Below are positions 1,822 through 53,945 of a DNA stretch of 64,000 bases, piece by piece. The translations under genes and the position numbers were made by a program. Below the pieces are notes generated by a model. That model was not told the DNA's origin and ran no database searches. It saw only the letters and a list, made by a program, of their open reading frames with translations. Source of the DNA: Panopea generosa (lineage: Eukaryota > Mollusca > Bivalvia > Adapedonta > Hiatellidae); the NCBI GenBank assembly GCA_029582155.1, contig CM055895.1, positions 62,039,078 through 62,103,077 of the forward strand, given 5' to 3'. Within the stretch, counting starts at the first letter, position 1; the number at the start of each line of letters is the position of its first letter.

Positions 1822-2160
1822 GAGAAGGAAAGGCAATTGATTGTGATTTTGTAAAAGCTCGCGTATTCACGCAAAATATCGCAATATCTTGTTCTTAAAT
1901 ATCTTAACTTCCATTCATCCCAGGAACACAAATCAAAATTCCTAGATTGCAGAATGAAATTCTCATCAAAATTTTGATTACAAAATTTGTAAACTGCAGC
2001 TAAAATAACGACAAATTAAGAGAAATTTTACTTCAAAATTTTCCTTCAAACCTCAATACCTTAAATTCAAGATCATATTACGTGGTCGAAACATGTTTGA
2101 ACATCTAAGATTAGGTACATGTTTCAATTTGTATACAATAAATCAGTTGCCGATGAATTA
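1822..2160 (+). repeat. Dispersed repeat R1, copy A
   Basis: It shares ordered blocks with 9,098-9,500 and, inverted, with 47,335-47,640: 'gaaggaaaggcaa', then 'gcgtattcacgcaaaat', then 'cttccattcatcccag', then 'ttttacttcaaa'. The second block can fold as a small stem (gcg/cgc here, ttgcg/cgcaa in copy B). No open frame is shared, and I cannot name the family. Confidence 0.7.
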
Positions 2161-2741
2161 TGAACGATTAATTGCCATCTAATGAATAGCGATTGGAGAC
2201 GGTAATTTTATATTGATATTTAAATGATTGGATACTTATAGATACTGGTATAGCATTTCATATTAGTTTACTGTTATGATTAAAACTATTTTTGAAATCA
2301 ATGGTGCAAGCTTTTTGAGAAACGAGATATTTTCTATTATTAGAAGGTATGTTTTATGATGCATTCATTATCTGAAAATGCCAAAATGTTTGATATATAG
2401 GGTAATGCTAAATTATTAATAATTTTAAATACCAATACATCATGTAGACATTATATAGATATTGCAAAACAATAATTTCGTTTCATATGTTAAATAAAAT
2501 GATATCCCTTCAAGAAGAGCTATTTTAGAGTTTAATTTGGAACGTATCTTAGAAAGCTCATTGTTCCATGATAGGGTATTGTCTATACTAACACCTCATA
2601 ATTTCTGAATGGTAACCTTTTCTATAAACACACTATTATTGCTAAATAAAAAAATGCGACATCATATACGGTCGCAAATAAATTTAAAACATATGCACAG
2701 GCAATCATAACATTTGTAGTATATATATATGTTCCAACAAT

Positions 2742-2744
2742 AAC

Positions 2745-2801
<57 letters not shown>
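2742..2801. repeat. (AC)n microsatellite followed by (TA)n
   Basis: Uninterrupted AC dinucleotides over about 47 bases, then a short TA run. Confidence 0.97.
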
Positions 2802-2802
<1 letters not shown>

Positions 2803-2950
2803 AAGGATAATAGAAATACACCTAACAAGATCCTTTCAATAGTATTGGATCACGGAGTTTATAAGATTTATAAGAAAAATACCGTGTTTTCAGTGAAATA
2901 CGCCGGTAAAATTCAAACTGTGCTGAGCAAAATGTGAAGCACAAAGTTGT

Positions 2951-3885
2951 TGATATATATCCCAAAAGTTATAGGACGCATTTAGAAATATGCATTTTTG
3001 TGTTTCAATCACAACAGAATTCGGATGAATAGATTTCCGTATTCAAACAATAAACATGCAAAATTTCAAAATTGTACACCAACATTTAACATTAATTTTG
3101 ACAAGTCTAGACTTATATGTTACAAAGTTAGGGGGAGATTGACTTTATTTATGCGATGTCAAGCTGACATTGAAATGCAAGACTCATAATTCCTAACCAC
3201 AGAATGTACACTCCAGCACATGATCTTGAGGTCCTGAAAGCACTTTCCACAACAATCTGACTCAGTCTCAGGAAAACCACACCAGATTTTGGTCGTTCAG
3301 ATCGCTGATGGTCAGTAAGTTTTGTCTCTCCATTAGAAACCCGTTTATACCATTGATAGATAAGACTCCGGGATATGCCTGCTGTTGAAGTGTTGTGTGA
3401 AATAAACTTCAGAGTATCCTGTGGGATCATATTACACCCAACACATATGACACTCCAAGTTTCCACGCTAGGCGTGACATTGCCCATTTTTTCACCATTC
3501 AAATTCGCACTTGTTATTTCAAAAGTGCACACAATATTCAAATGTTTGTCGAGAACATCGAATTTTCAAACGACGTTTGCACAAGTTAAAAACAATTACG
3601 TCTGCTGTTATTTTATAACGTTTGACGCCATATTAAAAAAGTTTTCTGCTCCCCAGGGCAATGTTGTTGTTTTTAAATGGTGTCTAATTTCAAAGTCCCC
3701 CGTACTGCTAAATTCGCGTTACTATAATGAATTTTGCATGAAATTACCGATCACTGAAAGTTGATTTGATATTTTATGACAATAGAAGATGTGTCAATAT
3801 ATCCATTCATGATATTGGTTTGCATGTAACAACATAAATACGAAAACGACTGGGTCGTCCTGTAACTTTCTGGATATACCTCGTA
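2951..3885 (-). mobile_element. Internally deleted mariner-type transposon
   Basis: The right end reads, on the minus strand, 'gtatatccagaaagttacag'. The left end at 2,951-2,978 has the related 'atatatcccaaaagttatag'. The pair matches at about 20 of 24 positions as inverted repeats, and the right end abuts a TA. Mariner ends of this type (cgagg...tcc-aaaagt) are well known. The minus-strand coding remnant between them has the mariner N-terminal helix-turn-helix but no catalytic D,D(34)D part. The total of about 935 bp is shorter than the usual ~1.3 kb, so the copy is deleted and non-autonomous. Confidence 0.75.
3149..3541 (-). pseudogene. Mariner transposase N-terminal remnant
   Basis: A 130-codon open frame. 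Residues ~35-90 read like the DNA-binding half of mariner transposase, with a 'SRSLIYQWYKRVSNGE' helix followed by 'KLTDHQRSERPKSG', equivalent to the family's W-x-x-x-F-x-x-G...D-x-R-x-G-R-P motif. Beyond residue ~90 the similarity moves to another frame ('NYESCISMSA'), so a frameshift is present. The catalytic domain is missing. The frame lies inside the inverted repeats of the 2,951-3,885 element and on the orientation expected from them. It cannot encode an active transposase. Confidence 0.75.
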
Positions 3886-4257
3886 CATTTATTATGAATG
3901 AACTAAGTAATGATCGCCGACTGGTGTTATTTAAGATGTATTTCAAATGATGCGAAAACTTGGCAAGTGTACATACTTTACATTTATTTTGAAGTTATAC
4001 TTGAAAATGTGCATTAGATAATTGTTTGTTAGTAGTTTTCCCTCAGGTCAAATACTAAAACTTATAACAATATGATTTATAAATATATTTATTGGCTTTT
4101 TAATAAATCTTGATAATTTCATTATCTATATATTTCGTTATATTCCGAATGTTAGAACTCGACAATTTTTTTATCATTTTATCCCACATGTCCAATATGT
4201 AAATATATTTACAAAGATTAAATTTAAGTTATGTATTGAACATGTATACTTTTTAAG

Positions 4258-4281
4258 ATATATATATATATATATATATAT
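4258..4281. repeat. (TA)n microsatellite
   Basis: Twelve uninterrupted TA dinucleotides. Confidence 0.95.
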
Positions 4282-4652
4282 GAAGTTGGGTACCTCCACT
4301 TTCTGCATAAAAAAATCATCAATTTTACTTTCCATATAGTTTCCTGAATAAAATGACTTTAGTCAGTCAAATATACATAAGTTTATTTTTTTATTGACAC
4401 AAACATAATACATTTGTATTTGATCGTAATCACTTGCCGGTTTGACATTTTCTTCTAGCAAAGAATAAGCTTATTATCAAAACATTTGCCCTAAACATCC
4501 CATTACTATTATCAGCCAGTCAGAGCGCTCGCCTCAGTAGTGGTTACTGATCATATGGAACCACACAAAACAATGATGTAATATATTGAATTTTGCTGTC
4601 ATATTTGATGTCTAACCCTCGGAGTAAGAAACAATGACTATACTAGTTTACC

Positions 4653-4835
4653 TAATCTTTAACAAATGGACGCACGTAATATCTTATACTACATAATCTT
4701 TAACAAATGAACGGACCTAATGTCTTATACTACATAATGTCGTATACTACATAATCTTTAACAAACGGACGGACCTAATGTCTTATACTACATAATCTTT
4801 AACAAATGGACGCACCCAATATATATATATATATA
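4653..4835. repeat. Short tandem array, ~41 bp unit, ending in (AT)n
   Basis: Four units built on 'taatctttaacaaatgga', a 'cgcacgtaat' block and 'cttatactaca'. The third copy has an extra 'tgtcgtatactaca' duplication. The array runs directly into an AT microsatellite. Confidence 0.85.
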
Positions 4836-5204
4836 TGTACCAACAATAACAACAACAATAACAACATATATACATGGTATATATATATACATATATATAT
4901 ATGAAAGCCAATTAAATGAAAATAATCATCACTTAAAGAGATATTTTTTTATGGAACTAATCGAATTATGTTTGCCTTCAAAAATGTAACTATTAGACCG
5001 AACGATAAACCATGGTTTGACTAGACCATAAGACGACGAGACCGTGAAAAACGTAAGGCACTAAATCACGTTTTCTTTCAGATTTCGAATTATACAAAAA
5101 ATACAAAATAAGGTGAACACAATAAAAAAAAACCCACACAAAATAACTTTTATACATAATATCGAATCTACTATTTTATAAAGCTACGTATATAAATAAA
5201 ACAT

Positions 5205-7560
5205 TTAAAGACTATGTAGTCAAATAAAAAATCAGAAATAATCCCTCCTCTAAAAACAACATTGTCATACGGTGGTGTTATTTATCCAATTTCTGATCAG
5301 GACAAAGCAAACTGTTTAAACGATTTTTGTTTTTTGTATTAATATCTTACCAGAGTTAAATCTTAACACAAATGCATCATTCGAAAATATAGCATTAAAG
5401 AAGAGGAAACACCAGATATATTAAAAATATTAGATTATTAATAAATCTAGTGGATGCGATCTTATTAGTCATAAGGTGTTCAAAGAAGCTGCACATGCTG
5501 TGTCAAAACCAATGTATACTTTTTAACAAATATTTTCCAGATTGTTGGAAATGTGCAAATGTTACGGCTTTGTTTTAAAAGGGTTCTCAAAATGTTGCAA
5601 CTAATTATAGGCCTATTTCTTTTTTAAGTTGTGTTGGGAAAGTGATTGAAAAAAATGTTTATAAACACATATATAATCATCTAAACCGGAATAACGTCAT
5701 TTTTATAAGCCAATCAGGATATTAGAAAGACGGCTCTACTGTTTACCAACTAATTGATATATATCACAGAATTTGTCAAGCTTTTGATTCCAAACAACAC
5801 ACACGTATAGTTTTTGGAGATATATCTAAAACTGTTGATCGAGTTTGGCATAGAGGTCTGCTTTTTAAACTGAAACAAAACGGCATTAATAGGAAAGTAT
5901 TATCTTGGATTTCAAGTTATTTCGAAAATAGAGTTAAAAATATTTATTGGAGCATCATCTTCTGAAACTAAAAGAATTACTGCTGGTGTCCCAAAAGGAT
6001 GCGTATAAGGACCATTATTATTTTTAGTATATATAAATAATATTGCTAATAACATGTTAAGTATTGTCCGTCTGTTTGCCGACGACAGTTCTCTTTCTGT
6101 ATCAAAGTCGAGTATAGATGACATGGAAAGTATTTTTAACCGTGATTTATTAATTCTGTCTAACTGGGGTAAGCAATAGTTAATGAACTTTAACTCAAAT
6201 AAAACTGAAGTACTGTTTTATCTCTAATAAATGAATAGAGGCGTCCAAACATTTATCTCGACAATGTACAATTAACCTTCATTAAACACCATGAACATCC
6301 AAGCATAACTTTAAGTCAAGACGGCAAATGACACAAGCATATATATTCTATCAATTCATCTGCATCTAAAGTTCTTGTGTGAATGAGATATTTAAAAGTT
6401 AAACTTAACAAAACCACGCTTAATCAAATATACATGTCATATATGCGCCCGATTTTAGAATATGCTGCTATAGTATGGAATGGGTGCACTGATTATGAAA
6501 AATACAAATTCGAAAAACTGCAATATGAAGCTTCACGAATTGTCGTAGGGTTGTCTCAATCAACAACCACATAAGAGAATTTGGATGGATTTCATTGTCC
6601 GATCGCCGAAAAACACAAAAACTAATTCATGTATATAAAATGAAAAATGAACTAATACACGAGCATACTTTTTCCTATCATAGGCGTAAATAATTCATAC
6701 ACTCTTAGAAATCAGAATAATCTGCAAATGTCCCTTATAAGAACTATGATATTTCTCTCATTCTTACCGTCTGCCATTGCATTATGGAATTCCATTCCAT
6801 TAAAAATTCGGAAATTTAGTTCATTAAATATTTTTAAAAATAGACTCCTTAATACATTATTCAAATACACTGAAGCGTCAAGGTATTTTTGCTGCGGTTC
6901 GAGGCAAGTTTACATGCTCGCTTACGTAATGCATGCAGTGATCTAAATAATGACTCATTTCTTAAGCATCATTGTGTGAATTTGGGCTCGAAACTGAAAA
7001 CGCACCATGTTTTAAAATCGAATCGATTTACGTATGAAAGTCATCAACTCTTTCAATCCGCTCGTAACTTTCTTTCTTTGAACGAAAACAAATTATTGTT
7101 CGGGCAGTGTGATCTAAATCATGAAAATAATGAATACATTTTTGCGTTCACACTTTTATAAAAACTAGTGGTCGTTTTCGACAATACATGCCAAACACTA
7201 ATTAAAAACGAGTATGCCAATTAGTCTATAACACATGTACCTGTCATCGAATCTCTACAAACTATATTCTCTTAAAGTATATCTCTCTATCTATTTCTCT
7301 GTCGCTATTCGCCCATCTGGATCGTTTTTTTTTCTCCTTTCAATATTCTACAAAATGTTCGTTCTGTGTCTCTAAATTTAATTGCTAGAATTTATTTTCT
7401 GTTACCTAAAATAATATAATTAACATGTTTAATATGTATTTTGTTGCTAGGCCATGACTAGTGAAATTGTAATACTGTAGTTAGGGAAGTGTCGTAACTA
7501 ATGGTGTTAGAACTTGTGACCCAACCCATTTACACATTATGGCAATAAACTATTTTTAAG
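5205..7560 (+). mobile_element. Decayed non-LTR retrotransposon, LINE family A copy 1
   Basis: A 5'-truncated, heavily mutated relative of the element at 15,960-19,463. In order on the plus strand I see pieces matching copy 2: 'DQDKANCLND' near 5,300 (copy 2 'DEEKANCLNS'), 'ISHKVFKEA' near 5,465, the RT block ending 'RLFADDSSL' at ~6,068-6,100, 'NQIYMSYMRPILEYAAIVWNG' in part at 6,420-6,485, and the C-terminal 'LHARLRNACSDLNND' at ~6,910. Stops and frameshifts break every domain. The 3' end has the same block as copy 2, 'gaacttgtgacccaaccca' then 'ggcaataaa', which marks the end near 7,560. Confidence 0.85.
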
Positions 7561-15460: not shown

Positions 15461-15968
15461 CCAAGTGTGTATAATGTTCGTATAATATGCGTGTTTACAT
15501 GAACTAAATGCTTTGATTCTTAGTTAATCAATTTATTCATATTTTATTTTTTATTTTACTTTGTTAATGTTGGCACCAAATTTCTCAGATGTTCATATTG
15601 TCACTTCATGTTTACTATCAAACACATCTTGCATTTATTTGCTTTTTACAGAATGCTATGTCTTCTCCTTCTTTCACTCTTAATCCTTCCGACTCTGTTT
15701 GTTACGTTAGGTATATTAGTTTTGTGCATTTGTGGTTCAGGTGAGATTGAGAACTCTATTATTATTGATTTGTTACTTCCAAATGGGTAATGATGTAAAT
15801 TCATGGCGAGTTGCCATTGGCCTGTTCCACAGCTGCTCATACCGGTATTTAAGTAGAGTTCGAGTCAATGTATCTCTAGCTGCTGAGGTTGTTTATATCT
15901 TTTATAAGATTATAATATTATCTATACTTTTATGTTACAAATACTTAATTACATTGAAAGAATGCTTT

Positions 15969-16496
15969 AACAACGTTCATTTTATGATAGTGTTACTCTT
16001 GCTGTTGCTGGATGCTGGTGATATTGAATCTATCCCTGGGCCACCGGCTAATATACCCAACGATATGTCGATACTCCATTGTAATATAAGAAGTTTTCGA
16101 AACAAAATCAACTTTATCAAAGACAATATGTTAGATTTTGATATTTTATGCTTTACTGAAACTCATTTAGATGACCTTATAAACGAAAATGAGAAATATG
16201 ACTCACCATATAGAAAAGATCGAACAAATCACGGTGGAGGCTTATTAGTTTATTTGTCGAAGAGTATCATACACACACGACTATCTGTTCTTAAAATTTA
16301 CTGTAAAGAGTCGATATGGATTGAGATTAAATTGAATAATGAAACGTACTTACTGGGTGTGTTTTACAGCCCTAAAACTGCTGACTCTCTATTTTTTGTA
16401 AATTTTAACATGAATATAGAAAAGGCCTTGGATGTTTCTAAAAATGTGCTGATATTTGGAGATCTAAACGAAGATCTTTTTAATCCTTCTTTTTAA
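15969..16496 (+). pseudogene. LINE A endonuclease domain with 2A-like leader
   Basis: The frame opens with a Leu-rich run, then 'DAGDIESIPGPP', close to the D-x-E-x-N-P-G-P peptide-release motif known from several APE-type LINEs, but with Ile in place of Asn. It is followed by 'SILHCNIRSFRNK' (endonuclease motif I), 'DILCFTETHLD' (catalytic Glu in the T-E-T-H context), 'GGGLLVYLSKS', and 'LIFGDLNEDL' (the G-D-x-N motif). It stops at 16,494, before the expected S-x-x-D and final H motifs, which are lost or in other frames. The role in a live copy would be target-site nicking. Confidence 0.85.
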
Positions 16497-17430
16497 AATT
16501 TAAAAAATATTCTGATTACAAATTCATTGGTTAATACAATAACTACTCCCACGAGACAAAACGCTCTTTTAGATCCAGTTATAATTCCAGATGACATGTC
16601 TTATAAAGATTCTGGGATTTTACCAGTACCATCAGAAATTAGTGATAATTGTGCTACATATTTAAGAATACTGTTCCCATACAGTTTACATTCTACATAC
16701 AAGCGTAACGTTTGGTTATATAACAAAGCAAATTTCGACTTGCTCAATAATAAAATATCAGAAAGTGATTGGAGCATGCTGCTAAACGGTAAACGAGTAA
16801 GAGAAAGATTTAAATCGCACGCTTTAAAATCAGGAAAGGGTAACGATTGGGCCAAATATAAACATGCATGCAACAAAGTAAATAATCTTAAAAAAAATGC
16901 TAAAGAGAACTTTTTTAATAATTTAGATTTAACACTTTCAGACCTTCACTGTAACGATAAAAGAGGCTTTTGGAAAGTTGTTCGACATTTTGTTAAATCT
17001 ACCGACCAAAGTGGTTTTATTCCGCCTTTGTGTAAAAACCTCTGACACGGGTGAAAATGATTTTTTTTCTCTGATGAAGAAAAAGCCAATTGTCTGAATT
17101 CGTACTTTACTTCTTTATCCAACATAACAGAAGATTTGCCAAATCTTCCATTACTTTCATTAAACACTGACAACAAACTTACACATTTCTTAATATCAAA
17201 AAACAGAGGTCGAAGACATTATCTTATCACTCAGAGTAAATAAAGCAAGCGGTCCTGACATTATAAGTCACAAAATGCTTTAAGGTGCTGTAAGAACAAT
17301 TTCTGAACCTCTTACTATTTTATATAATCGTTCTATTACCGAAAGCCATTTCCCTAACTCATGGAAAATAGCCCATGTAACTCCTATTTTTAAGAAAGGG
17401 GATAAGTCAATTCCGTCTAATTATAGACCA

Positions 17431-18294
17431 GTGTCGTTGCTAAGCTGTGTCGGTAAGATTTTAGAAAGAATAATTTTTAAACATATGTATAACTTCTTCT
17501 TGAGTAACAACTTATTGTATAAATACCAGTCTGGATTTTTGCCAAATCATTCAACTACTTTTCAACTCATCGACATTTATCATCATATTTGCCAATCCTT
17601 TGACAACAATCAGTTCTCTTGTATGATTTTTTGCGATATATCAAAAGCTTTCGATAGCGTTTGCCATACGGGGCTGCTTTTCAAACTAGAAGAAAACGGT
17701 ATAAATAGGAAACTTCTAAACTGGGTCAAAGATTACCTTAAAAATAGAAAACAAAAAGTAGTAATCCAATCTTCATGTTCGTCATTAATGTATGTTAAAG
17801 CTGGAGTACCACAGGGCTCTGTCTTAGGACCTCTTCTTTTTCTCATATATGTCAACGACATAACTCAATCATTATTGAGCTTAACCAGACTGTACGCTGA
17901 TGACAGCTCTTTGTATTATTCAGCAACCTCTATCCAAGATATTGAAGGAATTATTAACCACGATTTAAATATTATATCTGCATGGGCTAATCAGTGGTTA
18001 GTTAAGTTCAATCCAGACAGAACTGAAGCAATTCTCTTCTCATTGAAACAGTTCGATGCACTTCCAAACTTGATGTTCGACAATACTCCGATTAACTTTG
18101 TTGATAGCCATAGACACCTTGGCGTCACACTTAGCAAAACCGGTAAATGGAATGACCATATTGATAATATTTTAAAATCTGCCTCTAAGGTTATTGGTGT
18201 CATGAGGAAAATGAAATTCACTTTTAGTAGAAATGCATTAAACCAAATTTATCTTTCTTATATACGTCCAGTTTTAGAATACTGTTCTCAATAG
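17431..18294 (+). pseudogene. LINE A reverse transcriptase domain
   Basis: The 287-codon frame spans most of the RT palm: 'ISKAFDSVCHTGLLFKL' (motif A, first catalytic Asp), 'AGVPQGSVLGPLLFLIYVND' (motif B), 'RLYADDSSLY' (catalytic double Asp) and 'WLVKFNPDRTEAILF'. All three catalytic aspartates are intact. Upstream fingers ('SNYRPVSLLSCVGKILERI') begin just before the ATG in the same frame. A stop at 18,292 cuts it from the C-terminal part. The family makes cDNA at the nicked target. Confidence 0.92.
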
Positions 18295-18452
18295 TATGGG
18301 ATGGATGTACTGATTATAATTCTGAAATGATTGAATTACTTTAAAATGAAGCAGCAAGAATAGTAACTGGTACCACCCGATCGATCTCCTTAAATAATCT
18401 ATACAGAGAGTGTGGATGGGTCTCTCTTGCAGAGAGGAGAAAGCAGCATAAA

Positions 18453-19136
18453 TTGATATTTATGTACAAAGCTACCCATAACATGATCCCGTCTTATATA
18501 TCAGACCTAATCCCTTCTTCTGTAGGAGAAAACGTACCATATTCCTTAAGAAATAATAATGATGTAAATATTCCAATTACTCGGACTGAACTAAGCCGCA
18601 AATCATGTATACCCTCATCTATTTCAGTTTGGAACTCTTTACCAAACGAGCTCAGAGATACTGCTACAGTATCGATTTTTAAATCTAGATTAAAGGCCTA
18701 TCTTCCAGAAGTAGTTAATCCACCCTCTTACTATAGTTATGGTCAGAGATATATAGCTGCTATGCATGCAAGATTGCGAACCAAATGTAGCAACTTGAAC
18801 AATGACCTTTACCTTAATCACCTACGCGATGTCCCTCATTGTACCTGTTCAAATTCTATAGAAGATGCAGATCATTACCTTTTTAGATGCAATCTTTTTA
18901 GGAACCAGAGATTCGTCTTATTTGACTCGACTAGAAATTTTCAACCATTAAATGCAGAGCTTCTTTTGTTTGGAAAGACTGCATTTCTATTGATGAAAAC
19001 ATTGTTGTTTTCACAGCGGTTCACGAATATATTAAAACAACAAGTCGTTTCAAAGAGTCTTAAAATGACAGCTCATTGTCATTTAAGAAATATATTATTT
19101 TGCCGGTTATATTTAAAACAAATGTATCTTAAATAG
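18453..19136 (+). pseudogene. LINE A C-terminal region
   Basis: The 227-codon frame continues the ORF2 protein downstream of the stop at 18,292 and a frame change near 18,340. It includes 'SVWNSLPNELRD', 'HARLRTKCSNLNNDLYLNH' and a Cys/His cluster 'CTCSNSIEDADHYLFRC', typical of the C-terminus of Jockey/R1/CR1-type ORF2 proteins. The protein end at 19,134 is about 330 bp before the 3' end of the element. Confidence 0.85.
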
Positions 19137-22439: not shown

Positions 22440-23173
22440 TGTTTAAAATTTGGCCTGTATTTATAGGCGTAGTATCGTTTCAATTAATGGGGGAGTAGTT
22501 AGCTTCCCCCGGAAAATGTCGATATTTTGAACATCAAAAAGTGCATCTTAATGAGTATTTATGATAAATTTTGATTGCTATTTATTCACAATATTTTGGA
22601 AATATTAAACTGTTTTATTTATAAAACTATATACTTTCACGGGGCTTTAACACCGGTATCTCAGTAACGCAAACACTGGGAGCCATTGGAAATGCGGGAG
22701 GTGAAACTTAAAAACAACAACATATGCTGCTTTTTAGTAAGTTTAAGAGGAAATATGCTTGTTATTTACGTTTTGTATTTAAAACACGCACGCACATACG
22801 TCACACACATACAACACACATATACACACAAAAAAAATGAGTCTCCTACCGGTGTTAAACTCGGGATCTTATGCACTGGAAACAAAGACGTAGGGAAGAA
22901 TGTTGCTTTCCTCCCGCTGACGAGGGTGTATGTCTCACACACCAATTAATTTTGTACTGTTCTACATTTAGAGACATGCACTTCAGGAACACTGGATACA
23001 TTACCAATGGTTCTAAAAGTGCCTTATTCCCGTAGATAGTCCTCTGTTGGTCCAAATATGAAGAAAGAACATGGGGTTGGCCAGGTTGCTTTTTCACAAT
23101 TTCGATTGTTTGATAACAACCCTTCATTTTTGACAATTCTGCCCATTTGTTGCAGTGTATCACTACGCATCTN
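22440..23173. other. Mostly unassigned; possible minus-strand coding scrap before the gap
   Basis: 22,950-23,173 has an open minus-strand stretch ('CNKWAELSKMKGCYQ') whose last ~60 bp resemble 49,533-49,580, so it is probably a dispersed repeat. I do not recognise a protein. Confidence 0.35.
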
Positions 23174-23672
23174 NNNNNNNNNNNNNNNNNNNNNNNNNNN
23201 NNNNNNNNNNNNNNNNNNNNNNNNNNNNNNNNNNNNNNNNNNNNNNNNNNNNNNNNNNNNNNNNNNNNNNNNNNNNNNNNNNNNNNNNNNNNNNNNNNNN
23301 NNNNNNNNNNNNNNNNNNNNNNNNNNNNNNNNNNNNNNNNNNNNNNNNNNNNNNNNNNNNNNNNNNNNNNNNNNNNNNNNNNNNNNNNNNNNNNNNNNNN
23401 NNNNNNNNNNNNNNNNNNNNNNNNNNNNNNNNNNNNNNNNNNNNNNNNNNNNNNNNNNNNNNNNNNNNNNNNNNNNNNNNNNNNNNNNNNNNNNNNNNNN
23501 NNNNNNNNNNNNNNNNNNNNNNNNNNNNNNNNNNNNNNNNNNNNNNNNNNNNNNNNNNNNNNNNNNNNNNNNNNNNNNNNNNNNNNNNNNNNNNNNNNNN
23601 NNNNNNNNNNNNNNNNNNNNNNNNNNNNNNNNNNNNNNNNNNNNNNNNNNNNNNNNNNNNNNNNNNNNNNNN
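23174..23672. other. Assembly gap (Ns)
   Basis: About 500 undetermined bases. Frames that cross it are meaningless. Confidence 0.99.
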
Positions 23673-24430
23673 AAACTGGTCATTGGAACTGATGACGAAA
23701 AATCGCTGGTCAAGGCTTTCACCACTACATTCCCAGAAGCATCCCATGTCCTGTGCATATGGCATAAAATGCCTGCCAACAACTGACTGACAACGCTGTA
23801 AACATACAGGATAGAATTAAGCTACTGAGTCAGATCTTTGGTCCAGACGAAATTGCCTCTGCAGATGACAGTATCTGTTTCGAGCATTGATGCGAAGAGT
23901 TTGAAAATGTATGCTCAGACATTTCAGATAAATTCGTCAATTACTTCCAGACCAGACTGAAATCCCATCTGAAAGATAAGGTTAATGGTCCATTTAGGCA
24001 TGGATTGGTAGACTCCAACTGGACAAACAAAAATTGCGAGTACATTAACTATGTCCTAAAACAGACGGTAGACTGGAAATCGAAAGGACTGACGACATTT
24101 GCACAGCTTGCTCAAGAGCTGGTTGATGAACAAACTGTGGATCTAAAAAATGCACTCATTGGCACAGTTGACTTCCAAATTGCTGACAGTCATTCACATT
24201 TCAAAAGAACGAAAACTGAATGGCTTTCCATGATACTGCCCCAACGCCAGAATCTTTTTAAAAAGTTCAGGCAACATAAAGTGACTAGCAGCAGACTGGT
24301 TATATCCAGCGACAGACTGTCTACTGTGGTGGCACTGAGGACGAATGGTAAAAAAACCCGCGCAAGAAAGTGCAAGGTCAATATAAAGACAACAGCATTG
24401 ACAAAAAAGCCCAGGTCTGAGCACGACTAA
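23673..24430 (+). pseudogene. MULE-type transposase, C-terminal half
   Basis: Right after the gap the frame reads 'LVIGTDDEKSLVKAFTTTFP' followed by 'ASHVLCIWH'. This is the Mutator-like transposase signature around the second catalytic Asp (TD...L..A....FP.A.H.LC..H). After a frameshift at ~23,785 come 'SQIFGPDE', then 'NWTNKNCEYINYVLKQTVDW', equivalent to the N-N-x-x-E-x-x-N-x-x-L-K block that usually carries the last catalytic Glu (Glu retained here). The frame then runs to TAA at 24,428. An in-frame TGA near 23,890 adds to the damage. The N-terminal half is absent or inside the gap. No terminal inverted repeats were identified. Confidence 0.65.
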
Positions 24431-32377: not shown

Positions 32378-32600
32378 TGACCATTATTAATTAATTGCTA
32401 GATCATCCAAATTTTTCTTAAAAACTGGGAGGGTGGGAGAGTTTTATTTTTTATTTTCATTTTTAAAATTTTTGATGTTTTTTTAATAAAAAAATATATA
32501 TAATTATACATATATTTTTTTTATTTATTTTTTTTTTTATGAAAATAAAAAAGGGTCAGGGCGGCATGGGATGATAATCTAGCAATTAATTTATTATGGC
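32378..32600. mobile_element. MITE-2, copy 1
   Basis: Terminal inverted repeats: 'attaattaattgctagatca' at the left and, as its complement, 'ataatctagcaattaattta' at the right. The interior has a 'gggagggtgggag' block and a 'gaaaataaaaaagggtcagg' block, also found in 41,762-41,928. No coding capacity. Confidence 0.8.
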
Positions 32601-32712
32601 GTTATACAATATCTTGAATGTGTTACAGTGTCATAATAATTAATGTTACAGCGAGAGTACAGATACTAAAATGTGGCAACAACAGAAATGAATGCCATGC
32701 TCACACTCCAAG

Positions 32713-32876: not shown

Positions 32877-32889
32877 ACACAATAAATCA

Positions 32890-32917
32890 TTGGCTCAGCG
32901 CAAAACCCCAGTAACTG
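32890..32917 (+). repeat. Left terminal inverted repeat of the large transposon
   Basis: 28 bp, identical to the reverse complement of 41,182-41,209. It has diverged subterminal copies at ~33,115-33,133 and ~33,168-33,187. Confidence 0.9.
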
Positions 32918-33635
32918 CATTTTTCTTACTTTTCAGGAGAGACAAAAAACTGATTATATCAATTACATGTTAAAAGACTTAAGTTTAATCTTATAATTAA
33001 GCAAATTCATTAAAAATAGTTCTTCACATTTGTATCTTGTATAAAAAAAAAATATTAACAAAGTATTAAAAGTAATCTGAAAAATTAAGTTGGAAATTTG
33101 CGTTGAAAAACTCGGCGCAAAACTCCAGTAACAGTACTTACTGATTTTTTGCTCTGAAATATATTTGTGCAAAACTCCAGTAAGTGCATTTACTGTTTTT
33201 TTGCTCTTAAATTTATTTGTGCAAAACATCAGTATTTACTCTAAAAGGTATATTGTACAATTAAAATGGCCAAAGATTTACTAAACAATATAACTAGTAT
33301 AATAACATTAGTTTAATGGAAAAAAGAGTTTATTTGACTTTTACAATAGACAATATTTATTCAAACACTATTTTATTCAAAAGTAATTCTGGCCTCTGGC
33401 CCATAATACAAATATACATAGTAAACATGCACATAACAAATGACTTGCTATAACTTAAAGTAGCTGCTTCTTATAAAATTAATTTTGTTTTTTACTAGTT
33501 TTTAAATTAAAATATCAAATAATATTAAAATGAAACATTTCTTTTCTTACACTGATATTTATTAAGCTTCACAAAAGGCATGAATAGAAAGCTCTGTGGA
33601 ATTATAAACTGTTTTAAAACCATAAACAGAATGAT

Positions 33636-33872
33636 TCATATTTCTCTTTTATAAACACTATTTCCGTACTTCATATCGCAATTAAAAAAAAATTTCTTAA
33701 CATTATTTGAGCAGTACCTATCAATTATAATCTTTAGTAATTTAAATAAAAAAATGCAAAAATGTTCATCTTTTAGCAGTGTTTTATCTAAAAATGTGTT
33801 GCTTTGAGTCATTGTATTACAAATAACGTATTGTTTTTCATTAATTAAATTACAATAGAAGTCATTCAACAT
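33636..33872 (-). pseudogene. Possible 3' coding remnant of the transposon gene
   Basis: A 78-codon AT-rich frame downstream of the conserved region of the transposon gene, containing 'QYVICNTMTQSNTFLDKTLL'. It may correspond to the segment following the conserved DLG...QRDY region in relatives, but the resemblance is weak. It could be a chance frame in 3' sequence. Confidence 0.2.
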
Positions 33873-34439
33873 TAATAGTAACTATAACTATATTTGCCAG
33901 TTATGCTAAAAATTAATAATATAAACGGACAAGTTGGCTGCTTTATTACCATTAATAAACAAACAGTATTTCTTTGAAACCTTCCTTTTACTATTGGTCT
34001 TATTTAGAATTGGTTGTTCTAGAATTGTTTGAGACATATAGTCTCTTTGGCGATCAATATAACCAAGGTCTCAGGAATCATTGAATAAAGTTTCCCTTTG
34101 GGTTTCTGTAATATGAAGTTGACATTTCTTTTACAAAGCAATCAACAACCTTTTTTAACTGATTTAGCATACTTATTCACCCCACAATGACTTGTATAGC
34201 TAAGACCTCTGTTTCTTTTATTTTTTATAATATTTCTTTTCCAGTTAGATTCCTGTTTCTTTTTTTCTCCCCCTACTTTGATTTCCTACATTTAAGACAT
34301 TTCCCATTTGACATTCATTAGAGGGGCTATTTAGTTCAGAGGTGTGAGGGATTAAATTCCTAACGGGTTGTGCAAAGTAAATCAATGGTCTGTCGTCATC
34401 ATCATCATCAACTGTATTCTCACTCATTTCTATATTACA

Positions 34440-36521
34440 ACTCCTATCACAAGTACCATTTATTTCACTATTCATCTCAGTAGAATTTCTTCTATTGCTA
34501 ACATTTTTACCTGACTTGCCACCACTACCACTATTCATATCACTACTATAGCCTCTATTACCAATCTTAGTTCCATCCCCTCTTTCACCACACTTACCCC
34601 AACTACCACTATTCATCTCACTATCATTGCCTCTTATCACTAGACTCACCAACACTACCACTGTTCATCTCACTTCCATTGCCTCTATCACTAATCTTAC
34701 TACTATCCCTTCTATCACCAGACTTACCACCATTATCACTATTCATCTTACTACCATCGCCTCTATCACCAGACTACTAACACGACCATTATTCATCTCA
34801 TTGCAATCTCTTCTATCACCATACTTACCACCACTATCACTATTTATCTCATTACCATCCACTCTTTCACCAGACTGACCACCACTACCGCTATAATAAT
34901 TCATCTCACTACCATCACCTCTATCACCAATCTCACTACCATCCCCTGTATCACCAGACTTTTCACCACTACCACTATGATAATTCATCTCACTACCATC
35001 GACTCTATCACCAATCTCACTACCATCCATTCTTTCACCAGATTTACCACCACTACCACTATAATAATTCATCTCACTACCATCACCTGAATCCCCAATC
35101 TCACTACCATCCCCTATATCACCAGACTTACCGACACTACACCTATAATAATTCATCTCACTACCATCCATTCTTTCACCAGACTTGTCATCACTACCAC
35201 TATAATAATTCATCTCACTATCATCACCTCTATCACCAATCTCACTACCATCCCTGTATCACCAGATTTACCACCACTACCACTATAATAATTCATCTCA
35301 CTACCATCGCCTGTATCACCAGACTTGTCACCACTACCACTATAATAGTTCATCTCACTTTCATCGCCTCTATCACCAATCTCGCTACCATTCCCTGTAT
35401 CACAAGACTTGTCACCACTACCACTATAATAATTCATCTCACTTTCATCGCCTCTATCACCAATCTCACTACCATCCCCTGTATCACAAGACTTGTCACC
35501 ACTACCACTATAATAATTCATCTCACTACCATCACCTCTATCACCAATCTCACTACTATCCCCTCTATCACCAGACTTACAAACACTACCACTATAATAA
35601 TTCATCTCACTATCATCACCTCTTTCACTAATCTCACTGCCAACCCCTCTTTCACCAGACTTACCAACACTACCATTTTTCATCTCATTGTAACCACCTC
35701 TATCACCAAACATACCACCACTATCACTTTTCATTTCGCTACCATCCACTCTTTCACCAGACTTACAAAGACTACCACTATAATAATTCATCTCACTATC
35801 ATCACCTCTATCACCAATCTCACTACCATCATCTCTATCACCAGACTTGTCACCACTACCACTATAATAATTCATCTCACTACCATCACCTTTATCACCA
35901 ATCTCACTACTATCCCCTCTATCACCAGACTTACAAACACTACCACTATAATAATTCATCTCACTATCATCACCTCTTTCACTAATCTCACTGCCAACCC
36001 CTCTTTCACCAGACTTACCAACACTACCATTTTTCATCTCATTGTAACCACCTCTATCACCAAACATACCACCACTATCACTTTTCATTTCGCTACCATC
36101 CACTCTTTCACCAGACTTACAAAGACTACCACTATAATAATTCATCTCACTATCATCACCTCTATCACCAATCTCACTACCATCATCTCTATCACCAGAC
36201 TTGTCACCACTACCACTATAATAATTCATCTTACTATCATCTCCTCTATCACTAATCTCACTGCCATCCCCTCTATCACCAGACTTACATACACTACCAT
36301 TTTTCATCTCATTGTAACCGCCTCTATCACCAGACATACCACCACTATCACTTTTCATTTCGCTTCCATCCACTCTTTCACCAGACTTACAAACACTACC
36401 ACTATAATAATTCATCTCACTATCATCACCTCTATCACTAATCTCACTGCCATCCCCTCTTTCACCAGACTTACCAACACTACCATTATTCATCTCACTG
36501 CAATCGCCTCTATCACCAGAC
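34440..36521 (-). repeat. 84-bp coding minisatellite, 3' part (about 22 units)
   Basis: The minus-strand unit encodes 28 residues of the form 'SGDRGDGSEIGDRGDDSEMN' plus 'YYSGSVGK'; the unit is itself built from two similar 9-10-residue halves. A 354-bp block (118 codons, with the unusual 'DSGGMFGDRGGYNEMKNG') at ~35,560-35,913 is repeated almost exactly at ~35,914-36,267. Units toward 34,440 become more diverged and merge into the unique acidic region of the gene. Confidence 0.95.
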
Positions 36522-38814
36522 TTTTTTTTTTTTTTTTCAAACTGTCCAATCTTTTTTTTTTTTTTTTTTCCAGCCATTCTACACTGTAGTGGCCCATTTA
36601 TTTTCCAATTAACAACATGGATAATTATATGTTTGAGCGAGAATAAACAAATCTGAGCAATATCAATACAAGTATTCCGTATTTCCATAAAAACACTTTC
36701 TCGATCATCCTCTTTCACTCATTTTTCAGCTGTCAATCTTATGTTTTTTGCATTTATTTTAAATAATGGACCTCACAATAGAGAATAAAAAAGAACAACT
36801 CTGTGTGCACGGTTACTTACGATACAGAAATAATAATAAAAATAATATGTTACATTATGGTTGGTGTTATTTTCAGGGTCTACTTACTTGCTTCATTTGT
36901 TTTAATAAAACATTTCTTACTTATTAATTGTGTCTATATTAACATTTTAAACATTTTTTTACCAGAACCTGGATAAAACACAAGTTGTATGGAAGGAAAT
37001 TAAAACCAGTATTTATCAAATTAATCTTGAAGTAAAGTTTTGAATTTATTCCATTTTTTTTCAAAAGTTTTTATGGTATTATTTTTAACTGCTATATATT
37101 TGTTTGCCCTAAAGGAATGTTTAAGTCTGTTGTGAAGTGCAGTTATAGATAATGGAGAAGTAAATTTTTTGGCTGAGAATATATATAGTATTTAATATCT
37201 AATATGATCTGCATATCAGCCATTATATAATGTTCTCCTATATTAAATATAAATAATTCTTCTATAAATGGTAAAGTTATACTGTTCCTTATAAACCATG
37301 TTTGTATTTTTTGAAGAAATGATCTTGTTGAAGGACATGTCCAGAGTAAATGAATAATGCTTTCCTCTTGATAACAATAAGAACATAGTGAGCTTGGGAC
37401 AGCTTTAATTATTTTTAAATATTTTTTTGTTGGTAAAATTCTATGGTTGATCCTGACTTGAAACCATTGTAAAATTGAGCTATAGTTATATTTGAAAGGT
37501 GATAAGAATATGTCTTTCCACGTTTCCTCAGAGATATTATAGATTTGCTCCCATTTAAATTTTGAAGTGGGTACTTCATCATTATTATTTAAAATATTGT
37601 AAAAATGTTGGCATCCTTTTATAGATTTAAAGTATACATTTATATTGGTGGGTAAAAGTGGATTTGGCATCTTTTTATTGTTGATGGTTATGCCATATTT
37701 CTTTGCTAATTTTTTTATTGCTTGTATTATTCCATGGAACTGTAGATAGTTGTTTTTTATGTTGTATATTGTTTTAAATTCATTTTCTGTCAAAAGCTCC
37801 CCTTTTTCTGACACGATATCATTAATAAAATATATACCCTTTTCATTCCATAGCTTATTTATTATGGGTTTTCCACCTACTAGCAAATTATTATTTTGAA
37901 ATATTGGTGTCTGAAGTAGATGTTCTAAGGTTGTAATTTTGTTTAATTGAATTATGCTATTGTGTGATTTAAGAACATCTCGCCAGAATGTATTGCTAAT
38001 TTTATTTATCTTTTTTGCTGTGTAAGCATTTCCAAAATTGCTAAGATTTGATAAACTAATTTCTTGTTCTATTATTCCACTCCAGGTTCCCCCCATACGT
38101 AGTAGTCTCCTAATCCATGTTGCCTTAAGTGCTAAAATAAATGCTTCAATGTTGATCATTTTTAATCCCCCTTCAATGTATTGTTTGGTGATAACTTTTT
38201 GTTTTATTTTGGCTGTCCCACCCCATATGAAATCGTAAAAAATTTAATTTATTTCTTTGATTACATTTTCATTAGGATTTGATAATGCTACAAATATATG
38301 ATTCAAAATAGGCAATAGCAAACTTTTTATAACAGTGATTTTTCCTAATGGAGTCAGATATCTTCTTGACCATTGTTTAATTTTAGATTTTATAATATTT
38401 ATTTTTTCTTTATAATTAATATTACTCATTTTGTCTAGATCAACATGAAAATTTATTCCTAATAGTTTAAACTCGTTTTTTCCCCAATTTAGTTTCCATT
38501 TTGTTTTGATTGTCTGACTACTGTATTTCTTAACTCCAATCCATACAACCTGTGTTTTATCAAAATTAACGCATAACCCCGAGATATTTGCAAAATGTGT
38601 GAGCTCATTCAGTGTTTCGTTTAAGAGATGATTCGGATCCATCAAGAATTGTGGATGTGTCATCTGCATATTGAGAAATCTTAAATTCGGTATTGTTAAT
38701 TTTAATTCCTTTAATGTTTTTATTTTTTCTTATTTTAATAGCTAGTATTTCAGAGCATAGAATAAAAATATAGGGAGATAAAGGGTCGCCTTGACGACAA
38801 CCTCTTCCTATGTT
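36522..38814 (-). mobile_element. 5'-truncated L1/Tx1-type LINE inside the minisatellite
   Basis: The minus-strand ORF2 remnant begins abruptly in the RT ('GRGCRQGDPLSPYIFILCSE', then 'QYADDTSTI'). It continues through 'FANISGLCVNFDKTQVVWIG' and 'LLGINFHVDL', an in-frame stop at ~38,244, the 'FIWGGTAKIKQKVI' connection block, 'GGLKMINIEAFILALKATW', and the C-terminal 'CSYCYQEESIIHLLWTCP' Cys/His motif. The protein ends near 37,026 after a late frameshift. The 3' end carries two A tracts (36,552-36,569 and 36,522-36,537 as T on plus). The 6-bp 'aagtct' on both sides fits a target-site duplication. One frameshift and one stop in the RT part suggest modest age. Confidence 0.9.
37026..38814 (-). 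pseudogene. L1/Tx1-type ORF2 C-terminal two thirds
   Basis: Retains the catalytic 'YADD' double Asp but has lost the endonuclease, the fingers and the first catalytic Asp by 5' truncation. Damage: a frameshift near 38,640, a stop at ~38,242 and a frameshift near 37,160. The G-x-x-Q-G-D-P-L-S-P form of RT motif B and the long C-terminal region are typical of the L1/Tx1 group and differ from the A-G-V-P-Q-G-S form of the LINE at 15,960, so the two belong to separate clades. Confidence 0.88.
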
Positions 38815-38820
38815 AAAAAA

Positions 38821-40795
38821 AGACTTACCACCACTATCACTTTTCATCTCACTACCATCCATTCTTTCACTAGACTTACCACCACTAACACTATAATAAT
38901 TCATCTCACTACCATCGCCTCAATCCCCAATCTCATTACCATCCCCTGTATCACCAGACTTGTCACCACTATCGCTATAAAAATTCATCTCACTATCATC
39001 GCCTCTATCACCAATCTCACTACCATCCCCTGTATCACCAGACTTGTCACCACTACCACTATAATAATTTATCTCCCTACCATTGCCTCTATCACCAATC
39101 TCACTACCATCCCCTCTATCACCAGACTTACAAACACTACCACTATAATAATTCATCTTGCTACCATCGCCTCTTATCACCAATTTCACTACCATCCTCT
39201 TTATCACCAGACTTACCAACACTACCACTATAATAATTCATCTCACTACCATCCCCTCTATCACGAATCTCATGGCCATCCTCTCTATCACCAGACTTAC
39301 CAACATTACCACTATAATAATCCATCTCACTACCATCACCTCTATCACTAATATCACTGCCATCCTCTCTATCTAGACTTACCAACACTACCACTATAAT
39401 AATTCATCTCACTATCATCGCCTCTATCACTAATCTCATTGACATCCTCTCTATCACCAGACTTACCAACACTACCACTATAATAATCCATCTCACTACC
39501 ATCCCCTCTATCACTAATCTCATGGCCATCCTCTCTATCACCAGACTTACCAACACTACCACTATAATAATTCATCTCACTACCATTGCCTCTGTCACTT
39601 ATCTCACTGCCATCCTCTCTATCACCAGACTTACCAACACTACCACTATAATTCATCTCACTATCATTGCCTCTATCACTAATCTCACTGCCTTCCCCTC
39701 TATCACCAGACTTACCAACACTACCACTATAATAACTCATCTTGCTACCATCGCCTCTATCACCAATCTCTCTACCATCCCCTCTATCACCAGACTTGCC
39801 AACACTACCACTATAATAATTCATTGCACTATCATCACCTCTATCACTAATCTCACTACCATCCTCTCTATCACGAGACTTACTAACACTACCACTATAA
39901 TAATTCATCTCACTATCATCGCCTCTATCTCTTATCTCACTGACATCCTCTCTATCACCAGACTTACCAACACTACCAGTATAATAATTCATCTCACTAC
40001 CATCGCCTCTATCACTAATCTCACTACCATCCCCTGTATCACCAGACTTGTCACCACTACCACTATAATAATTGATCTCCCTACCATTGCCTCTATCACC
40101 AATCTCACTTTCATCCCCTCTATCACCAGACTTACAAACACTACCACTATAATAATTCATCTCGCTACCATCCCCTCTATCATCAATCTCACTACCATCC
40201 TCTTTATCACCAGACTTACCAACACTACCACTATAATAATTCATCTCACTACCATCACCTCTATCACTAATCTCACTGCCATCCTCTCTATCACCAAACT
40301 TACCAACACTACCACTATAATAATTCATCTCACTATCATCGCCTCTATCTCTAATCTCACTGACATCCTCTCTATCACCAGACTTACCAACACTACCACT
40401 ATAATAATTCATCTCACTGTCATTGCCTCTATCACTAATCTCACTGCCATCCTCTCTATCACCAGACTTACCAACACTACCACTATAATAATTCATCTCA
40501 CTATCATCGTCTCTATCACTAATCTCACTGCCATCCCCTCTATCACCAGACTTACCAACACTACCACTATAATATTTCATTTTGTCACCATCGCCTCTAT
40601 CACCAATCTCTCTGCCATCCCCTCTATCACCAGACTTACCAACACTACCACTATAATAATTCATTGCACTATCATCACCTCTATCACTAATCTCACTACC
40701 ATCCTCTCTATCACCAGACTTACCAACACTACCACTATGATAATTCATCTCACTATCATCGCCTCTATCACTAATATCACTACCATCCTCTATTT
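38821..40795 (-). repeat. 84-bp coding minisatellite, 5' part (about 23 units)
   Basis: Same 28-residue unit as the other half, with more uniform copies. Variant order repeats here too (for example 'SAMNYYSGSVGKSGDRGDG' followed by 'EIGDRGDG' appears twice). The 459-codon minus frame at 39,369-40,748 is uninterrupted. The plus strand is also open because the period is a multiple of three. Confidence 0.95.
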
Positions 40796-41181
40796 CAGAA
40801 GTAGAAAAATCTGTTTATTTATATCTATAGAATTTAAAAACATGCTGCTATTATTCAGATACAGATATTTGTTTTCTTTTCTAGGGGGAGGGAGTGTCAA
40901 TAAAAAATTATAGTGCAGGAAAGTTATAAAATCATAGATAATACTGGCTTTTTGCATTATTGATTTTTTGATTTGTACTTTAAAAACTTAGTGCAAAAAC
41001 TCAGTAAGTGCAGTTACTGGGGTTTTGCACTGAGAAAAAAAATCATGAATGCAGTTACTGGATTTTGCTATTTTTTGAATTAAAACATTAAAAAAAAAAT
41101 TTCAACCACCATATTTTGATAAGAGGTGTAACTTACCTTTATATACCAAATTATTGAAAAAAGTCATTTTGGGATAAATGT

Positions 41182-41209
41182 CAGTTACTGGGGTTTTGCG
41201 CTGAGCCAA
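41182..41209 (-). repeat. Right terminal inverted repeat of the large transposon
   Basis: Perfect 28-bp partner of 32,890-32,917. Subterminal copies of the inner motif lie at 41,010-41,030 and 41,051-41,069. Confidence 0.9.
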
Positions 41210-41261
41210 CGAAATGAAATATTCAAACAGAATCAAAGGTAAAACACCTAGTAAATGAAGA

Positions 41262-41747: not shown

Positions 41748-41761
41748 GTTGATATAAATTA

Positions 41762-41928
41762 AGGCCATAATAAATTAATTGCTAGATTATCATCCCCGCC
41801 CACTCCCTAATTTTCATGCCACCTCGACCCTTTTTATTTTCATAAAAAAAAATAAAATCCTCCCGCCCTCCCTATTTTTTACAAAAAATTTGGATGATAA
41901 CCTAGCAATTAATTAATAATAGCCCGAC
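41762..41928. mobile_element. MITE-2, copy 2
   Basis: Inverted ends 'ataaattaattgctagatta' and, as its complement, 'ataacctagcaattaattaa'. The interior includes 'cctcgaccctttttattttc' and 'cccgccctcccta', the complement of the copy-1 blocks. Confidence 0.85.
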
Positions 41929-48159: not shown

Positions 48160-48600
48160 CCCCCTGTGTGGTTCTGGGGAGCCATATGAGTGATGGCAAG
48201 AATAGGATCACTGTGGTTCATGCATGTCATAAGAAGCAACAATTTGAGTAATATGATAGAATTTGCTAAAACTCTGCAGTTATGCAGGTATCAAGGTTCT
48301 AGGTTCAGTCTGCATATTCATTTTTTGATGCATTTTTTTTTTAAATCTGTATGTTAATTTGGTTTATTTTTGTACATGTTAAGTGAACCTGGAATTTTTC
48401 TTCCTGTTGGCGTCGAATAACCTATGTGTTGTATGCCGTTAAACCCTATTCATTCATTTTTTGATGTATTTTTTTTAATCTGCATGTTAGTGGGGTTTTT
48501 TTTTGTACATGTAGAGGGAACCTGGAATCTTCCTTCCTATTGGCGTCGAATAACCTTAAATGTGTTGGTACGCTGTAAAACCTTTTCATTCATTTTGGTT
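48160..48600 (+). mobile_element. SINE-E copy with tandemly duplicated 3' end
   Basis: Matches the inverted copy at 53,505-53,945. It contains 'gagtgatggcaagaatagga', 'tatcaaggttctagg', 'gaacctggaat' and the tail 'ccgttaaaccctattcattc'. The last ~143 bp occur twice in tandem (from ~48,312 and ~48,456), including both 'ttggcgtcgaataacct' blocks. Confidence 0.7.
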
Positions 48601-53504: not shown

Positions 53505-53945
53505 GAATGAATGAAAAGGGGTTTACGGCTTACCAACACATTAAAGGTTATTCGACGCCAACAGGAAGGAAGATTCCAGGTTCACTCTACATGTACAAAA
53601 ACAACAAATTAACATACAGATTAAAAATAATACATCAACAAATGAATATGCCAAATGGACCTAGAACCTTGATACCTGCAGAACTGCAGAGTTTTAGCAA
53701 ATTCTATCGTATTACTCAATTTGTCGCTTCTTACGACATGCATAAGCCACAGTGATCCTATTCTTGCCATCACTCATGGCTCCCTGGAACCACACAGGGG
53801 TTGATAATTTAACCACAATAGTGAACATGACAAAAAATGATAAAATGAACATAACACCCATTCGGAGGATTCCTACCCCTCTGCAGAGATCGACAGTGAT
53901 TCTATTCTTAGCTGGAACCACATGGGCCAGTATTCTTGAAAACTG
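53505..53945 (-). mobile_element. SINE-E, inverted partner of 48,160-48,600
   Basis: Reverse complement of the 48,160 copy with high similarity ('gttattcgacgccaacagga', 'cctagaaccttgatacctgc' on plus). Its 5' part contains two related 'aagaata(g)gatcactgt'-type blocks, so the front is duplicated in this copy. Confidence 0.75.

Follow-up and report, generated by a model that had tools for sequence, protein, structure and literature searches.

A decayed cut-and-paste transposon of Panopea generosa suggests a transposase function for DUF7869, a domain joined in some lineages to a VTD-type protease

An 8.3 kb interval of the Panopea generosa genome, bounded by perfect inverted repeats and containing a gene remnant, raises the question of what kind of element it represents and which enzyme moved it. 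The interval lies in a 64,000-nt stretch of DNA, hereafter the window, which corresponds to C2:62039078-62103077 of the genome (1.474 Gb, 39 contigs); coordinates given without a contig label are those of the window. An earlier note, made from the letters of the window, had described the interval as one cut-and-paste transposon with an uncharacterised gene remnant, possibly belonging to an undescribed group. Comparison with related copies across the genome indicates that the element is very probably a cut-and-paste transposon for which DUF7869 would serve as an RNase H-like transposase of the three-aspartate (DDD) type, working in a manner like that described for Sola elements and fused, in some lineages, to the protease domain VTD.

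The two perfect 28-bp inverted repeats reported in the note are located at 32890-32917 (plus strand) and 41182-41209 (minus strand), and their pattern, allowing up to 3 mismatches, matched the window 3 times and each of 100 dinucleotide shuffles 0 times. Comparison of 36 copies places the true terminus 2 bp outside the 28-bp repeat on both sides, where most copies have CG and the left end of the window copy has CA. The element therefore spans 32888-41211, with terminal inverted repeats (TIRs) of 30 bp, CRTTGGCTCAGCGCAAAACCCCAGTAACTG; the two ends recognised originally are the right ones, but the boundary is shifted outward by 2 bp on each side. The diverged inner copies of the TIR motif that had been seen near each end were also recovered: the core, GCAAAACYCCAGTAA, recurs exactly at 33117-33131, 33169-33183 and 41014-41028 and elsewhere with 2-3 mismatches, and at up to 3 mismatches it matched the window 11 times, with 1 of the 11 outside the element (shuffles: mean 3.9, largest 9).

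Across the genome, a search for the 28-bp repeat that tolerated up to 3 mismatches located 204 places, 104 of them forward and 100 reverse, and a reversed-pattern control located none. Pair counts apply to the 100 places listed, 72 of which make 36 convergent pairs with a spacing of 1.27-9.5 kb. With all flanks read, a 4-bp target-site duplication (TSD) is perfect in 32 of the 36 pairs, has one mismatch in 3 and two mismatches in 1, whereas re-dealing the partners 1000 times gave a mean of 8.4 perfect duplications per 36 and a maximum of 16. The commonest of the 32 perfect TSDs is ATAT (15), and AAAT (5) and AATT (1) are among the others; a duplication of 8 bp was rejected, being present in 0/36 pairs adjoining the 28-bp repeat and in 1/36 adjoining the 30-bp repeat. 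Not all copies are independent: the pairs at C7:5624k and C7:5714k have flanks in common and are segmental duplicates, as are the copies at C4:68.93M and C4:69.03M, which have a nearly identical flank. A 400-bp query made of the two flanks of the window copy with one AAAT between them, for which 40 of 3326 candidates were scored, gave full-length matches at five loci (97-99%) and at a sixth (86%). Read base by base, the five empty sites have a single AAAT where the element would sit and bear neither remnant nor footprint of it; they differ from the window in the left flank by two additional bases, and in the right flank by one base change in one and a small gap in one. Thus, the insertion went into a repeat that was already there, precisely between 32887 and 41212. 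The element is flanked by inverted arms of 46 bp (89%) at 32568-32613 and 41751-41796, which would bracket ~0.9 kb were the element removed; these arms, together with the match of the joined flanks to five other loci, suggest that its target may itself have been an inverted-repeat element. Overall, the convergent pairs, the TSDs and the empty sites bear out the view that the interval is a single element of the cut-and-paste type; the genome search supplied further end pairs and defined the TSD, the ends proved to be mostly paired, and the boundaries do not fall elsewhere, the 2-bp shift aside.

The protein encoded by this family can be read in the copy at C13:8227882-8234248, 6.4 kb long, which has TIRs and an open 1360-aa frame and was used as the reference. 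Its frame contains Herpes_teg_N (PF04843, VTD), a cysteine protease domain of the herpesvirus-tegument type, at residues 21-167 (E 2.7e-8, over the Pfam cut-off) and DUF7869 (PF25273) at residues 1115-1261 (E 5.2e-15; 56 bits versus a cut-off of 26), with GSEMNSGS-type repeats and a Cys/His-rich stretch, recognised by eye, between the two. In the scanned frames Pfam found these two families only, with no other transposase, helicase or Rep family, and the description of the encoded family as uncharacterised was apt, in that Pfam knows the domain only as DUF7869. Alignment of DUF7869 shows an FDLQ-type and an SDNC-type motif whose Asp are invariant in 6/6 rows; a third Asp lies in a GHT-x-x-E-x-D motif, and all three are invariant in 4/4 full domains, at a spacing of 76 and 41 residues. 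In the VTD region, Cys36, Asp161 and His163 (Asp-x-His) are invariant in 3/3 proteins, all of which exceed the Pfam cut-off, and the catalytic residues described for VTD are a Cys and an invariable Asp-x-His (PMC9741609). Against solved chains, the VTD profile matched 8add_A (E 2.7e-5), which appears to be a Helitron VTD, and large tegument proteins of herpesviruses (E 3.3e-6 and E 1.3e-4).

A genome search for DUF7869 (E <= 0.001; 150 of 224 candidates scored) yielded 135 matched stretches, and 14 control genomes yielded none. Besides the window's own family (family A), the domain occurs in family B, represented by three copies with a mutual identity of 97.4-99.4%, TIRs beginning CGTCGYTGCGAAGTCAAA and the TSDs ATAT, ATTT and ACAT; the 29 ends of this family make 12 pairs, 11 of which enclose a DUF7869 match and 0 a VTD match. 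In family D1, the TIR begins CGAGGGCTTGRTGYGAAACGG and the TSD is GTAT (one copy, both ends read); of its 171 ends 100 were listed, and among these there are 28 pairs, 3 with DUF7869 and 1 with VTD. The VTD and DUF7869 parts of a D1 copy share one frame, broken by a single stop, and an open 1248-aa frame with both domains on C18 (D2) is known from the frame without its ends. By eye, the TIRs of families A, B and D1 share 5'-CG and a GTAACT core; inner copies of the core recur at a distance of ~180-300 bp from the ends, in family A and also in D1, where those on the left are exact and the others weak. The three invariant Asp and the presence of DUF7869 in three families with CG-starting TIRs and 4-bp TSDs make a DDD transposase the most likely identity of this domain. 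Of the 49 VTD matches in the genome, 4 have a DUF7869 match no more than 6 kb away, versus ~0.05 expected at random. A fourth VTD-DUF7869 neighbour pair, at C9:70815162 and C9:70817924, has stops in both matches. Four D1 end pairs are 246 bp apart (C3:47266267-47266512, C10:3304315-3304560, C20:8503280-8503525 and C3:47805741-47805986) and are probably miniature elements of the same group.

Several observations weigh against this assignment. The Glu 2 residues before and the Glu 7 residues after the third Asp are invariant as well, which makes the third catalytic residue uncertain. The putative DDD/RNase H-like fold of DUF7869 is deduced from residue conservation, and comparison of a profile of its C-terminal part with solved structures brought up one hit, at E 1.2, which we attribute to chance. 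In family B, DUF7869 occurs in the absence of VTD, and no inner copies of the core could be located near the ends. Among the TIR pairs of the window's family, Pfam detected DUF7869 in 3/36 and both domains together in 1/36; for 45/49 VTD matches, no DUF7869 match is nearer than 6 kb; and 28/100 listed ends have no partner within the list.

Of the alternatives, the one that survives best is that the element is a plain member of Sola, most likely of Sola2, and DUF7869 the Sola transposase under another label. Sola elements are described as 2-9 kb long with a DDD transposase, 4-bp TSDs and TIRs of 11-1124 bp (PMC10741241), and the DDD-like invariant Asp, the lengths of the element and its TIRs, and the 4-bp TSD (32/36 pairs in the window's family, 3/3 copies in family B, 1/1 in D1) all fit this description. 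The AT-rich 4-bp TSDs of Sola2 in two amoebae (AWWT, ATAT, AAAT, ATTT; PMC3627910) resemble those found here, and Sola1-3 have been reported from molluscs and bivalves (PMC10294476). However, the amoeban Sola2 TIRs measure 12-21 bp (PMC3627910) as opposed to 30 bp, 11 of the 32 perfect TSDs fall outside AWWT whereas 21 fit it, and the N-terminal VTD is unmentioned for Sola in the available parts of these sources. The likeness is drawn from published descriptions and not from protein comparison, so that the element can be said to work like Sola, with an even chance of being Sola. The earlier suggestion of an undescribed group accordingly holds in part: the domain is uncharacterised in Pfam, but its DDD-like residues and 4-bp TSDs match the Sola descriptions, and the group may be an unrecognised Sola lineage. 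Somewhat less probable, and offered tentatively, is that DUF7869 marks a separate superfamily of DDD transposases, outside Sola and characterised by 5'-CG ends, the GTAACT core and 4-bp ATAT-like targets, some lineages of which bear VTD and would form a second class of transposon carrier besides Helentrons.

It is quite unlikely that the TIR unit is moved by an unrelated transposase, with the DUF7869 gene being a passenger. The scarcity of DUF7869 between the paired ends of the window's family, given above, would fit such a scenario, but the domain lies between the ends of three families with different TIRs, including nearly all pairs of family B, these families share 5'-CG ends and 4-bp TSDs, and the scanned frames match no other Pfam transposase family. 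Far less probable still is a Helentron-type rolling-circle element, although most non-viral VTD domains have been found in Helitrons, in the Helentron subclass (PMC9741609): the 30-bp TIRs, the 4-bp TSDs, the empty sites with one target copy and the lack of any Rep or helicase domain in the scanned frames led us to reject a Helitron or Helentron identity. As in the VTD-carrying Helentrons described there, a transposon-encoded VTD has the catalytic Cys and Asp-x-His, and its profile matches 8add_A, but here the domain is joined to DUF7869 in an element with TIRs and TSDs rather than to Rep-helicase. Eleven of the 49 VTD matches in the genome score almost alike and come from frames that are all 2098 aa long; it might be guessed that these are perhaps intact Helentrons with VTD. 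Kolobok and piggyBac elements duplicate TTAA, which is found in 0/32 perfect TSDs, and were rejected. Ginger1, in which a transposase is fused to an OTU or Ulp1 cysteine protease, the TSD is CCGG or CCGT and the ends are TGT (PMC2836005), resembles the present elements in the fusion to a ubiquitin-type cysteine protease and in the 4-bp TSD; however, its transposase is of the integrase DDE type and its protease C-terminal, whereas the VTD here is N-terminal, and it was rejected on account of the AT-rich TSDs and CG ends. That the repeats are a chance or segmental inverted repeat that does not move, as at least one copy pair with shared flanks (C7:5624k and C7:5714k) might hint, is scarcely credible in view of 204 ends, 36 pairs with TSDs mostly at different sites, and empty sites.

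If DUF7869 is indeed the DDD transposase of these elements, transposition can be envisaged as follows. A full-length element would make one long protein, of which DUF7869 and the Cys/His-rich stretch would bind the TIR and the subterminal core, forming a DNA-protein complex. The C-terminal DUF7869, acting as a DDD nuclease, would excise the element, and joining would take place at target cuts staggered by 4 bp, with a preference for ATAT-like sites. In lineages A, D1 and D2, the N-terminal VTD-type deubiquitinase may strip ubiquitin from the transposase or its partners, shielding them from ubiquitin-dependent removal; a role in ubiquitin removal has been proposed for the Helitron VTD by its describers (PMC9741609). 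A literature search, with Repbase and most subscription journals outside its reach, returned no account of a fusion between VTD and a DDE or DDD transposase, and one likewise without most subscription journals returned no match for DUF7869 or for Herpes_teg_N together with a transposon. No relatives of two of the alignments in viral contigs, or of one of these in genome contigs, were confirmed.

The window copy itself is a decayed, non-autonomous DNA transposon copy that lacks both functional ends of its gene, and as a dead element it is ordinary. Of the reference it retains positions 1-340 (93.3%), 1942-3830, where its repeat array is the longer, and 5320-6369 (91.6%); positions 341-1941 and 3831-5319 are absent. 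Its features, in window order, are as follows.

32884-32887, unstranded: TSD AAAT, left copy (flank reading; single AAAT in five empty sites)
32888-32917, plus strand: left TIR, 30 bp, CA TTGGCTCAGCGCAAAACCCCAGTAACTG; other copies mostly begin CG (pattern search, pair flanks)
32890-33936, minus strand: retained 3' non-coding end, 91.6% identical to the open-frame copy
33117-33204, plus strand: subterminal TIR-core copies, direct at 33117-33131 and 33169-33183, each with a less well matching partner in inverted orientation (3 mismatches), at 33138-33152 and 33190-33204
33936-33942, unstranded: deletion junction, putative catalytic domain DUF7869 lost; common to 32/35 distinct copies compared
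33942-34466, minus strand: what remains, with frameshifts, of the Cys/His-rich stretch that lies upstream of the putative catalytic domain
34466-36523, minus strand: coding tandem repeats, part 1, 28-aa unit GSEMNYYSGS..GKSGDR
36524-38820, minus strand: fragment of a long interspersed nuclear element (LINE) inside the repeat array, poly-T at its low end
38821-40860, minus strand: coding tandem repeats, part 2; the gene's 5' side ends in a remnant of the post-protease linker
40860-40869, unstranded: second deletion junction; protease (VTD) domain and upstream sequence lost
40869-41211, minus strand: retained 5' end, 93.3% identical to the open-frame copy
40993-41007 (plus strand, 2 mismatches) and 41014-41028 (minus strand, exact): right-side subterminal motif copies
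41182-41211, minus strand: right TIR, 30 bp, CGTTGGCTCAGCGCAAAACCCCAGTAACTG (pattern search, pair flanks)
41212-41215, unstranded: TSD AAAT, right copy (flank reading; single AAAT in five empty sites)

The single minus-strand gene remnant recorded in the earlier note is real but larger than described, consisting of two blocks of ~84-nt coding repeats (~4.1 kb in total), interrupted by the LINE fragment, plus 33942-34466; judged against the open-frame copy, it covers the repeats together with some of the linker on one side and the beginning of the Cys/His-rich stretch on the other. The LINE fragment is flanked by AGACTT on both sides (36518-36523 and 38821-38826) and contains, by eye, the C-terminal part of a reverse transcriptase, with a zf-RVT match (E 0.0004) below the Pfam cut-off. 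Pfam recognised 0 families in two queries from the gene remnant and Rfam gave 0 matches in the window; in viral contigs, the remnant had no confirmed relatives and a 20-bp piece of the TIR had 0 matches.

The deletion that removed DUF7869 is not peculiar to this copy. Junctions were compared at 41 given loci, corresponding to 35 distinct places that were mostly picked by matches to the window, a choice favouring its subfamily, and 32 of the 35 distinct copies span the 3' deletion junction unbroken, at 86-97% identity, the window itself aside. Of the three copies without the junction, two retain the DUF7869 domain and one is a short copy without that coding part. Nineteen of the 32 junction-bearing copies belong to the 36 pairs, and their TSDs are perfect in 19/19 cases. 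A 3' deletion shared by separately inserted copies with perfect TSDs implies that the deleted form was itself moved many times by protein from elsewhere, and is the strongest indication of transposition in trans; the dead subfamily probably multiplied in trans, after losing its own putative catalytic domain. Codon-position counts in two family-A copies, one of them broken, were few and permit no inference.

The window contains other features of mobile or repetitive character. At 15720-19136 (plus strand) there is a LINE with an RVT_1 match (E 1.9e-32) for 17284-18294, preceded by a frame that resembles an endonuclease. A run of exactly 500 N (23173-23672) is located beside a 179-aa frame at 23891-24430 (plus strand), for which Pfam offers nothing convincing and which resembles a Mutator-type transposase. 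Inverted repeats of 155 bp and 90 bp (91%), ~5 kb apart at 48186-48586 and 53515-53777, possibly delimit another TIR element.

The family is of moderate interest because it ties DUF7869, DDD-type transposition and the VTD deubiquitinase together. A Pfam domain of unknown function gains a likely function as a transposase and, with 135 DUF7869 stretches in one genome, many annotated 'uncharacterised DUF7869 proteins' may belong to transposons. Three lineages combine a DDD-type protein with VTD, which offers a possible cut-and-paste route for the spread of the VTD protease, and a VTD-bearing element of such simple build would make it testable why transposons carry deubiquitinases.

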